Source: a virus
IMG/VR virus record: IMGVR_UViG_3300028196_000067
Location: 1 to 27,396 of that record
Strand: one strand, 5' to 3'
DNA: 27,396 nucleotides
The notes below the pieces were generated by a model, which ran no database searches, had not been told where the DNA came from, and saw nothing but the letters and a program-made list of their open reading frames with translations. The position numbers and the translations under genes are program-made. Below are positions 18,801-24,800 of the stretch, piece by piece (the stretch's first letter is position 1; each line of letters starts with the position of its first letter).

Positions 18801-21800
18801 CTTTGTCCTGATACAATCTCAAACTATAATTTACGAGTGAAGAATCTGAAAGGTCAAATACTAAATTGTTATTTTTGACCGGTTGTAATTGTGGATTAAT
18901 TAATGATATTGTTTGTGAAGAACCACCCGTAGAAGCAAAACTTACAACTGTTGGTGGATTTTGTTGAGAATCTATTAAAGTTTCGCAGAGATTAATTTTA
19001 TTTCTATTAACTTTATAAACAAAATATTCGTTATGTCCACTATCTTCATAAAGAACTTTATCACCAGTTACTAACTCATGATCTGTAATTGTGATTTCAT
19101 TAGTTACTGTATTAATTCCTGTGGAATTAAATCCAATTGGATTGATTACAATATTATCAATTTCTGATTTATAGAGAACACGAACTGCTGTTGAGGTTCC
19201 AATACCTACTGAAAGATTGGGTTGAACATCTAATGTTACCGTATCTCCATTTTGAAGTTCATGAGATGTTGATACTGAAACAGTCACTACATTCTTATCT
19301 ACATCTCCCAATATTTGAGTATAATTAGATTCGAATGAATACTGATCATTATCTACTCCATTAGAATGGAAGAACAATTCTTCACCTGCAATTGTAGTCT
19401 TCAATCCAATAATACTTGGACCTTTCTTAACTACAAAAACATTGGTATCTAAATTTATTGGGATAGATGTTCCATCGGCAGAAACAGTTATAGGTGTTCC
19501 ATTAGAAGCATAAACAACTGGTTGATTTGTTACAAAGGGATGACTTTCAATGTAAATTCCTTTTGTAGGAATACTTCTAGTTACAGTTGAAATTCCTCCG
19601 AATGTAAATGATGTGCTATATCCAACACCACTTATTGTTCCAACACCAACAGACTCTCTAGGATTGAAAAATACTTTATCATTTACTTTAGAATCAAATT
19701 TATCTACAGATTTAGAAATTGTAAAAGAATCTGGAGAGAAAGTTACTGCCGTTCCAACAGTATGTGATACACCCACCAATCCTCTTTCAACTCTGAGAAT
19801 ATTTTGACTTTTAAATACTTCAAGAACTTTTAAAGTTTCTGTTCCAATACTAATACTACTACCAACAGATACTTGTTCTGGAATTGGAGAAACGTAAATT
19901 TCTGTTGTTTCTGTTGAAATTCCTGCAGATGTTATAGTAGAAAGACATCTTCCATTTGCATAAGAAGGAACTGTAATTTGATGTGTTCCATTAAGTGTCG
20001 ATAGATTTGTAGAAAATCCAGATATAGTTACATAATCTAGATTTAAAAGATCATGATTGGGTAATATTGATACTTTTACTCTACTTGTAGATTCCCATGT
20101 AAAAATAGAATTTAAATATTCAGTTGAATTTGTATTTAATTCTACAATACTCTTTCCTTTAATGGAAGCAATATTAACATCTAAACCACTTCCTGAAGTA
20201 TCAGTATCATCAAATATTAATTTATCTCCAACTTTGTAATTACTGCCAGAATTTTCAATCTCTATAGATTTTACAGAGTCTGATGTTACAGATACTACTT
20301 CTATTTTTTGATCTAAAACATCACTAGTTTCATTAATAAAATCATAATCAGCATTTAGTTCTGATACTTTATATGGTAATGTGTTTCTCAATAAATTTGA
20401 ATTATTGAAATCAAATGATTGATCCAAATCAGAATTGGAAATTAATTTTGATTTATACTTATTACCTATAAAATATGGAAATTGGTCTATTGTAGCATGG
20501 TATGCATAAACACCATTCGGATACTCTACATTTTTTTCATATCTACCATTATATTCATCTAAATCTCCAACACCATTAAATTGATAGTCTTCGACAAAAA
20601 AACCAGCATTAAATCCAGATGGTCTATCTTCAACATTAGATGTGTTTAAAATATATCCAGATTCTAATAATCTCGTTCCGGAAGGTACATTAGGATCAGA
20701 ATATCCATAGGGTCCATAAATTGGATTACCATCATAAGCCCATCCAATTATGTTTGAAATGCTTGTAGATCCTGAACCCACTTTACTTTCTTTAAAGGAA
20801 TTTCTCAAATTCTCAAAATATTTTGATACTGAATATTGAAGTTTATCTTTACCTTCTAATAAAACTTCTCCAGTAGTGAATCTTGCAATATTATCATTTA
20901 AAGTTAATTTTCTTATTTGTGGATCAATAAAAGCATTTTTTCCTGATGAGACAACTTCAATTTTTGTGTTTGATGCAGAATACCCAATGCCCGTATTCAG
21001 AACTTTTACTTCTGATATTTCCCCATTATTAATTATTGCTCTTAACTCGGCCCCAGTGCCAGATCCAGAAACAATTAATTCTGGAACAGAATAATATTCA
21101 CTTCCAACATAACTTGTAAAAACATTAATTATTTTTCCATCAACGATAGATGGTGTTAATTGAGCAGATTTACCATTCTTTATAGAGATTATTGGTTTTT
21201 TCTCTAAGTTTAAAATTGTAGATCCATAACCAGTTCCTGATTCGTAAACATAGGCATCAATAATACTTCCTTTTACTACTGGAGTTACTACTAAATCATT
21301 ATTCTGTTGAGTAGTAGTGCCAAATCCTACAGTATTGTATTTAATTGAAACAGAAATATCAGAATATTTGAATACTTGATTTTGTGATCCAGTTGATACA
21401 AATTTAACATAATCTTGTCTTTCAAAATTAGAGGTGATAGTTCCTCCAATACCAGCATCACATATTCTAAATTTATCATTATCAAGTTTCAAAACATAAT
21501 ATTGATTTGTAGTTTCTACGCCTGCTATTGGAATCGGTGCAGCAAAGTCTCCAGTAATAGTACCATCTGCTGTAGCAGATGCATAAAAATCTTCCGATAA
21601 ATCAGTTGTTTTTGTTATACCGGGACCTTCATAACTAATTCTAAAAGAATCACCACCACTACCTTCTTCCATTACCACTCTAAACGGATAATAAACACCG
21701 GCAATTAAGTCTATAGTTGCTGATCTTTCTGTTGCTGCTTGACCAGAACCCATCCCATTATCTAATGTAGCATTAGCCTTTGTTCTTGTTTGACCCTCAA

Positions 21801-24800
21801 GTGCAAGATTACCTATCCAAATACCACTTCCATCATCTGAACGGGTGTAGAATTTATATGTTCCAGATACTCTTGGTCTAAAATATCCTACTCCAATCCA
21901 TCCATAATTATCTCCTATACTATTACCAAAATTAACACTACTCCAGAAATTCACTCCAAACCTATAACTTGGATCTGGTAATCCAGATGTTCCTGTTACA
22001 TTACTACTATCATTTGCCGTAGTAAGAGGTATTGATCCTATATTACCAGTAGATATTACTGATCTCCAACTTCCATTAAAGAATTTTCCAGCAATACCAC
22101 CCTTTTTAAAAGTTGAAGTTCCGGAAACAGATCCTGCATATTCTACAATTTCACCACTATTAAATCCATGATTCTTGAAGTTAATAGAGTTTTGTGTCGT
22201 AGATATTCCAGTAGAATTTACAATTAATTTTCTATTTGTATATCCTTCACCTTTGTTAATTACTTTTATATAAGAAACTTGTTTTGAAGACGAAAGTGTT
22301 GAGAATTTATGTGTTCCAACAGAACCGGTATAGATTCCTACAACATTTGCGTTTGATTGCTGATCACTTAAAGTATTATATAATTTTATTGCTTTATTGT
22401 TAGTAACACCAACAAAATACGTTGAATTAGTAGGAAGATTGATATTATTTCCTGCAGTTCCAATTGCTATTGGATCATTACCTAAAGAATTATAAATTAC
22501 TTCTTGACCATTAATAAAGTTATGATCTGTTAAAAATACAATTTGATTCGTTGTTTCACTAACTCCACCACCACTAGAAAATTCATCTGCATTAAATAAA
22601 ACTTCTCTGGGTCTTTCGATTATTACAGGTTCGATTACGGCACCACTACCATTTCCTCCTGAAATATTAATAGAAGTTATCTCTCCAATATTATAATCTT
22701 GCGAATCTACATATACTTTTTCAAAACCTCCACTAATAACAGGTTGAATTTTTGCAGTAATACCAGCACCGGTAGAAACTTCAACTAATGGTGGATTAAT
22801 TATATCAAAATCTTCTCCACCAGAGAGAATATCTACATCCTCAATAGGACCATAGTAAACTACATCTTTAGATTTATAGTTGTTAATTTCGACACCATTA
22901 ATTAACACTCCAGTAGTTCCTGGAGTTGTTAAGGTTCCGGAACCATTTTCAATATTTTTTTCTAATGGAAATTTTCTTAGAAGTTTTTGTATTCCTATAT
23001 CATTTTTTCTTTGGGAATCTAAGGTAAAAGTATGAGTTCCTATACCAGAATTTGGTATTTGAAATGATACATTACTGTCCGAATCTAATAAAGAAGGTGT
23101 AGTATATAATTTGAATTGATTTGTAGATGTTACTTTTACATAATAATTACCAGTTTGCAATCCAACTAAAGGTTCATCTTGTGGAAGATAATATATTTTA
23201 TCTCCTGTTAAAAATGGGATGGAAGGATTGAATTGAATTATATTATAAACATTGTTACCTCCTGAAATTTCTGGAATATTAAAAGTGCTAGCAATACTTA
23301 CTTTTTTAATACTAGTTTTAATATCAAGACGATAATCTACAATTCCATTTTTTTCTTCGGAAGGTAGTGAATTTGATGCTACATATGCGTAATCATCTTT
23401 ATCAACATATACATTAAGAATGTCTGATAATACAGAACTACTTTCAAAATTTGAACCTGAAGATTTTGTTTTATTTAATTTTCTTCTTACATCATATTCT
23501 TTATTGTTTTCTAAAGTTGGTTTGTTTATTAAACTTAAAGAATTTACTGAAGTATCGATATCTTGAATATAAGGTGTATTAGCAGAGGATACTACAAGTT
23601 CACTACCTCTTTCTAATATTTCAACTTCATCTCCAATTTTTAAACTGGATCTATCAATAGTCGATCCTAATTTTACACTCGAATTATTTACAATCTGATA
23701 TCTTGTGCTGGTATTGTATATGAAAGAATTTGCAAAAATCTCTTTCCAGTTTAAATTACTATTCTTAATCCTGTCTCCAAGATTTTTAATTGTAATTATA
23801 TCATTTTCGTCTACTTTAAAGTCTTCATTTTCTTCTACTAAATCTTGTATTACTCCAAGCAATATTAATTCAACTTTCTTAGAAGTATCTCCATCTTCAT
23901 AAGAAAAGTAAGTGTCTTTAGATCTAATATTTGATGATGTAGTTATAATATCGTTGATACCAGTACATCCAAAAAATTGATTAATACTTTTTCCAGTGTA
24001 AGAAATAGTATTAGTTCCTGAAATTAATGTTCCAGATTGTGGAAAACTTAGAGTTGAATCCACTGTTAAAATGGAAGATCCTACAGATACACTTTCAATT
24101 AGTTTTGTATTTGGAGTAATTTCAAAATTTCCTTGAACTGAAGAAGAATCAACAGTATTTCCAATATAAAATTCAATTTTATAGAATGTTTTTCCTTTTC
24201 TTGAAAATGATTCTATAGCCGATATTGAAGCAGTTGTGTTCTCATCAGTAGTCTTTATGAGAGTTTGTCCGACAATTTTTGAGGGTTCACCTGATATTAC
24301 TTCTGCTATTGCAACTTCTCTTCTTACATAATTTGCGGAAGAAGGTTTGATTAAATAATCTTCCAAATTTATAATTGAAGGAGTTTCTCCAAAAATAACT
24401 TTGAAAAGTATTTTTATTGCTTCATCTGTTCCTTTAGAAGCATAAAAATCTTTTGCTCTTTTGATAAAATTACCAACGTCAATTTCATCTGAAAATTTAA
24501 TATTTTCCAATCCTGGAGTAAAAGTATACTTTAGTTTTTTATAAAAATCTTTTAAAAATAAAGAACTTAAATTCTGAACAGATGTATCGTTAGAATGCTC
24601 TGCTGCTGTTGATGTGGAAAAAACAAGTTCTCCACGATTCAAATCTTGATGGTAATCGGTTACTCCACTAAATCCGCGCACACAACCAGTAAAACTATTG
24701 GTAGTAATTCCAGTATATGTAATGACTTCATTATCAATTTTAAGAAGTCCATACTGATTAGGGAATCCTTTTGTATTAGAAACACTAATAGTAGTATCAG

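Follow-up and report, generated by a model that had tools for sequence, protein, structure and literature searches.

The window, that is, the whole stretch of 27,396 nt that was analysed (virus fragment IMGVR_UViG_3300028196_000067), carries on its minus strand the baseplate operon of a T4-like cyanophage; in this operon, genes for a gp25-like and a gp6-like protein are followed by a gene for a gp7-like protein of 4060 amino acids (aa), with further structural proteins after it. The subject here is a PA14/GLEYA domain that lies inside gp7, in a loop of one of its repeated β modules (Table 1). Gp7 matches PHROG 2885 (baseplate wedge subunit) with E=0, and its orthologues in Kyanoviridae carry the labels gp7 or baseplate wedge initiator and adjoin gp6; both the gp25-gp6-gp7 neighbourhood and the family match are present in the window, as for a T4-type gp7 wedge protein. 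The protein shares with T4 gp7 its gene order beside gp25- and gp6-like genes and the annotation of its orthologues, but it is about four times longer and has module repeats and loop inserts. T4 gp7 is a protein of 119 kDa (PMC3004832), and in these cyanophages gp7 is about 3900-5200 aa long. The closest isolated relative of the window is Synechococcus phage S-SKS1, which infects Synechococcus WH7803, a laboratory strain, and shows about 90% DNA identity across nearly the entire overlap.

Table 1. Positions of gp7 and its features in the window.
Feature	Window position	Strand	Basis
gp7-like giant baseplate wedge protein, 4060 aa	12862..25044	-	single open frame; PHROG 2885; orthologue annotation
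Module copy A (aa 597-680), intact	23005..23256	-	module profile
Module copy B (aa 827-923), intact	22276..22566	-	module profile; predicted model
Module C, first half (aa 946-973)	22126..22209	-	N-terminal part of module profile; leave-out test
PA14/GLEYA domain in module C loop (aa 983-1167)	21544..22098	-	Pfam; boundaries from stand-alone relatives
SDDGSGIWIG (aa 1069-1078), candidate DcisD calcium/carbohydrate site, D1070-D1071	21811..21840	-	
MEEGSGGDSF (aa 1125-1134), candidate second calcium-binding loop	21643..21672	-	
Module C, second half (aa 1172-1231)	21352..21531	-	C-terminal part of module profile; leave-out test
YHYH domain (aa 1424-1525), downstream of module C	20470..20775	-	PF14240, 2.6e-22
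Module copy D (aa 1825-1910)	19315..19572	-	module profile
Half-copy D' (aa 1916-1961)	19162..19299	-	profile positions 3-47 only
Module copy E (aa 1976-2045), intact in window; propeller-loaded in S-SKS1 and relatives	18910..19119	-	
Module copy F (aa 3099-3191), intact in window; insert in phage S-T4	15472..15750	-	

A module profile finds six copies (A to F) of a β module of about 87 residues in gp7, together with the half-copy D'. Module C is matched in two pieces, with profile positions 1-37 at aa 946-979 and positions 30-85 at aa 1172-1231. A preliminary description of this DNA, which suggested that the PA14 domain is nested inside such a module, had located both flanks correctly: KNHGFNSGEIVEYAG is aa 957-971 of gp7 (window 22132-22176), and PIPIAGVETTNQYYVLKLDNDKFR is aa 1170-1193 (window 21466-21537). 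It placed the domain itself at about aa 983-1145, and Pfam does find a domain between the flanks, but this C-terminal end is about 20 residues short, the true end being at 1167 as judged from stand-alone relatives. The gap between the corresponding strands in other copies is short, as had been stated, but its range is wider than the proposed 20-35 residues, at roughly 5 to 30; it is shortest in module E and longest in B and F.

To avoid circularity, the flanks were compared with the other modules by means of a profile made from 359 module copies, to which neither C copies nor the window's clade contributed. When joined, the two C halves score 47.9 bits (7e-17) against this leave-out profile, while in swapped order they give only two separate matches, of 20.1 and 21.6 bits. 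The maximum for 200 shuffles is 13.5 bits, and that for 200 random pairs of segments drawn from other parts of gp7 is 8.6. The homology of the flanks to the other module copies is therefore beyond chance.

An empty site is present in S-SKS1, the DNA of which is 94% identical to the window up to ...GAAATTGTAGAATATG, the insertion point. Past this point S-SKS1 reads HGFNNGEIVEY-DYESGQISGITTANQ-YFILKVDDDSFRLCDAG, which is an intact module without PA14, and then homology resumes. The C loop could be measured in 93 gp7 homologues: it is 12-29 residues long in 88 of them (most often 15), and 212 residues long in five, as in the window. The scan of metagenome gp7s took in 80 of about 600 alleles. Bellamy gp7, which had been considered as a PA14 carrier following a BFVD fold match, was ruled out, its C loop being empty. 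Relatives that have no PA14 segment but an intact module, such as the preliminary description had anticipated, are therefore found, and its proposal of a nested insertion into the loop of a pre-existing module is borne out by the empty site, the short loops of the 88 homologues, the leave-out profile and the predicted model described below. A tandem instead of a nested arrangement is ruled out by the S-SKS1 empty site together with the leave-out profile test. On this sequence evidence, we regard it as virtually certain that the PA14 domain is nested in the module C loop of gp7. Given that the window is a metagenomic fragment, the arrangement might be thought to come from a chimeric contig; however, the same junctions recur in several metagenomes, in contigs L010-L014 and in those of a third lineage (L125-L127 and L141), and these independent contigs rule out an assembly artefact, the chance of which is negligible.

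AlphaFold2 was used to predict the structure of aa 826-1285 from 87 aligned sequences, giving a mean predicted local distance difference test score (pLDDT) of 84.6 and a predicted template modelling score (pTM) of 0.59. In the model, intact module B and split module C share the same order of elements (strand, strand, loop, strand, strand, helix, strand, strand), with a PA14 fold in the C loop. The likeness of the split to the intact copy expected in the preliminary description is thus seen at the level of the predicted element order. A Foldseek search with the predicted model matched the yeast Flo1/Flo5, Candida Epa and Marinomonas MpPA14 lectins; the best E value was 5e-9, with yeast Flo and Candida Epa lectins at about 1e-8. 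These matches support a PA14 β-sandwich fold for the insert.

In Pfam the insert matches both GLEYA (PF10528, aa 1052-1137, 1.7e-15, 57.5 bits against a cut-off of 26.2) and PA14 (PF07691, aa 1045-1150, 4.8e-11, 43.1 bits against a cut-off of 24). In PA14 lectins, Ca2+ is held by a DcisD pair, and vicinal hydroxyls of the sugar are bound (PMC8092209). The candidate pair in gp7, D1070-D1071, is invariant across nine aligned phage PA14s, its cis peptide being assumed from the motif. In the candidate second calcium-binding loop, MEEGSGGDSF, the E, E, G and D columns are also invariant in the nine, and phmmer aligns this stretch with the region of the second calcium loop of Flo5. The gp7 insert has in common with the adhesin lectins Flo5, Epa1 and MpPA14 a Pfam PA14/GLEYA match, a Foldseek match and a consecutive Asp pair, but differs in being nested inside a phage structural protein and in not keeping the Asn of the fungal calcium-binding loop 2 (CBL2). 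Because the DD pair is present and invariant, and in view of the mechanism of PA14 lectins (PMC8092209), a Ca2+-dependent contact with a glycan is favoured, and from sequence and model the insert probably has lectin activity.

The findings go beyond the preliminary description in that the same loop hosts other domains in other module copies. In the window module E reads DHELVTGDKVLYEDSGHNEYFVYKVNRNKINL, and its loop is 3-13 residues long in 71 of 84 gp7s. In S-SKS1, about 270 residues of β-propeller-like repeats lie between DKVLYE and NSEYYVYK, and a propeller in the module E loop occurs also in 11 viral-contig loci, eight of them whole (L105-L112) and three cut at the contig end (L113-L115). 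A predicted model of module E with the propeller from L106 (pLDDT 78.6) has the insert between both module halves and gives propeller-type structural matches, the top one being the YVTN propeller of an archaeal surface-layer protein; relatives of the propeller are found in proteins of Lentibacter and Roseobacter phages. Phage S-T4 has an insert of roughly 130 residues in the module F loop, for which there is no Pfam match. Three module copies (C, E and F) are therefore loaded at the equivalent position in some phage. Module C is empty in all the propeller-in-E loci where it is visible, and no sequence has both PA14 in C and a propeller in E; mutual exclusion is not claimed, because the window and L011 are the only members of this clade that extend as far as module E.

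Inserts of 162-169 residues were considered for module E of L073, L087, L098 and L102 and were rejected, since L098 shows the segment before the module and not in its loop. The L098 protein has about 150 extra residues (aa ~1810-1960) directly before module E, which include a dockerin/EF-hand-like motif (FDLDGDGVVSPTDTLIAHRQMIN) under the Pfam cut-off, and segments of similar length are seen in L073, L087 and L102. A protein of S-SCSM2R annotated as baseplate wedge protein 53 (L122:2957-5299, 780 aa) matches the S-SKS1 propeller weakly (26.5% identity, 7e-6), and is possibly another wedge protein with a propeller-type domain.

PA14 domains at 56-65% identity are found in further virus contigs, either as stand-alone proteins, about 200-280 aa long, or as the C-terminal part of longer proteins that contain LamG or Calx-beta domains. 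In one contig (L015), the stand-alone PA14 gene adjoins genes that match tail-fibre families. The gp7-borne PA14s group apart from the stand-alone ones in a PA14 tree (94/90, not starred), which is consistent with one capture. In the tree of the gp7 backbone, the PA14 carriers fall in three separate places among empty relatives, with 3 changes forced by starred branches. The window and L013 are identical at 51% and 52% of fourfold sites upstream of the insert, at 91% within it and at 53% beyond, and in the 45 codons directly after the insert they are identical at all 14 such sites (100%); Fisher tests give 2e-11 for the insert and 3e-4 for the 45 codons. In those 45 codons the window has 70-73% DNA identity with its empty sisters, as against 86-90% upstream. 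Because identity between the window and L013 peaks in the insert and the next 45 codons, a recent homologous exchange of the loaded loop is indicated, and the loop and the 3' half of the module have very probably been exchanged horizontally, a point absent from the preliminary description. The L125 lineage has 43% identity at the fourfold sites of the insert and is too distant to separate recent from old exchange. A scan of 84,980 species genomes for a cellular source gave no relative, with patterns that reach only fairly close relatives, and tblastn gave no close relative of the insert in isolated phages at E<=1e-3. When the L125 homologue was used as query, the only match in an isolated phage was a Pelagibacter phage tail protein, at 36% identity.

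The closest described arrangement is the ‘evolved Dit’ of siphophages of Gram-positive bacteria, in which carbohydrate-binding modules occupy loops of Dit, a structural protein of the tail tip, and are variably present among relatives (PMC7291167; PMC6669499). Common to both is a domain of ligand-binding type in a loop, absent from relatives. The carrier there is the galectin domain of Dit. In the cyanomyophages it is a repeated module of gp7, a wedge protein of T4 type; the module copies offer several equivalent loops, in which PA14, the propeller and the S-T4 domain are found. The gp7 arrangement works like an evolved Dit, yet is not one, the carrier not being a Dit with a galectin domain. 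An account of domain shuffling in phage tail proteins (PMC10684548) makes no mention of ‘nested’ or ‘PA14’, and no description of a display loop common to the repeats of one protein was found there. No account of domains nested in loops of gp7 was found in the open-access literature, and in open-access full text PA14 domain and cyanophage occur together only for an unrelated gene in cryoconite phages.

We propose that gp7 is partly built of modules in which the loop between the second and third strands would tolerate the insertion of whole domains. The lineage of the window would have captured a PA14/GLEYA domain in the module C loop; domains of this type otherwise stand alone near tail-fibre genes or form the C-terminal end of fibre-like proteins. 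Homologous recombination would then have passed the domain from one gp7 allele to other, divergent ones, along with about 45 codons of the module's 3' half. T4 gp7 is part of the baseplate pins, at the periphery (PMC3004832), and because of this the insert may, by analogy, be exposed and project from the edge of the baseplate. There the domain would bind host or near-host glycans via Ca2+ held by D1070-D1071, and would add weak multivalent adhesion beside the tail fibres. That the module loops of gp7 are display sites for exchangeable adhesion domains seems to us fairly probable, while a role of the PA14 insert in adsorption is plausible but falls just short of an even chance. Somewhat more tentative is a wider scheme in which the repeats would form a multi-slot display rack: the C, E and F loops would be recurrent acceptors of unrelated contact domains, the conserved flanks of the modules would anchor the homologous recombination by which loaded loops pass between phage lineages, and the whole would constitute a second combinatorial adhesion system of T4-like cyanophages, apart from the tail fibres.

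Several points weigh against a display function. The homology of gp7 to T4 gp7 rests on annotations and PHROGs, and aa 1-800 of gp7 matched no baseplate chain in the PDB at E<=5. The CBL2 Asn of fungal lectins is replaced, with Glu at the aligned place in the phmmer alignment. In place of such an Asn, the bacterial MpPA14 employs Gln/Gly/Asp of L11 (PMC8092209). The ratio of nonsynonymous to synonymous substitution rates (dN/dS) is 0.77-1.35 in the insert (six pairs where it is defined, which are not independent) versus 0.23-0.38 in the upstream 600 residues, on small counts, which possibly reflects diversifying selection but fits relaxed constraint as well. Finally, most gp7s have no insert at all. 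This scarcity, the patchy distribution of PA14 and a dN/dS near 1 would suit a tolerated passenger, which costs little, is carried by recombination and has no function in adsorption. We consider this unlikely, given that the frame stays open in gp7s that have diverged by about 30-50% in sequence, that neither the DD motif nor the EE..G.D loop varies among the nine aligned PA14s, and that both inserts that could be identified are contact-domain types.

The domain might instead bind glycans that are not receptors, such as extracellular polysaccharide or particles, and concentrate the phage near its hosts. PA14 lectins can be promiscuous (PMC8092209), and the fold matches are to yeast and bacterial adhesins, but T4 gp7 is in the baseplate and not in the head (PMC3004832), which makes contact with the host surface at least as likely; we rate this somewhat below the passenger explanation. 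Least probable of the three is a mechanical or spacing role in an enlarged baseplate, independent of sugars, for which one could cite the growth of gp7 from 119 kDa in T4 (PMC3004832) to its present length in cyanophages and the lack of a Pfam match for the S-T4 insert. Against it, the inserted domain is of ligand-binding type, is dispensable, as in S-SKS1, and sits in a loop rather than between modules.

The reason for the size of cyanophage gp7, about four times that of T4, is not obvious, and would be explained in part if the loops are acceptor sites. If the display-loop reading is true, the baseplate of these phages would itself bear exchangeable equipment for host contact, away from the tail fibres, in which host range is usually looked for. 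S-SKS1 and the window are close to a natural control, with about 90% DNA identity over the window and a difference in two loaded loops. Since S-SKS1 infects Synechococcus WH7803, removal of its propeller could test the idea.

The YHYH-domain region is among the best-conserved parts across gp7 homologues. A further length-variable region, outside the module loops, corresponds to about aa 3470-3590 of the window protein and is seen in L116, L117, L119, L098 and L062; phages differ there in length by anything from several hundred residues to about 1,100. In the deposited record of S-SKS1 (HQ633071, L002:9590-19781), the gp7 gene is split into three overlapping frames and for the most part lacks annotation, and intact relatives of 4136-4250 aa are found in viral contigs L105, L106 and L109.

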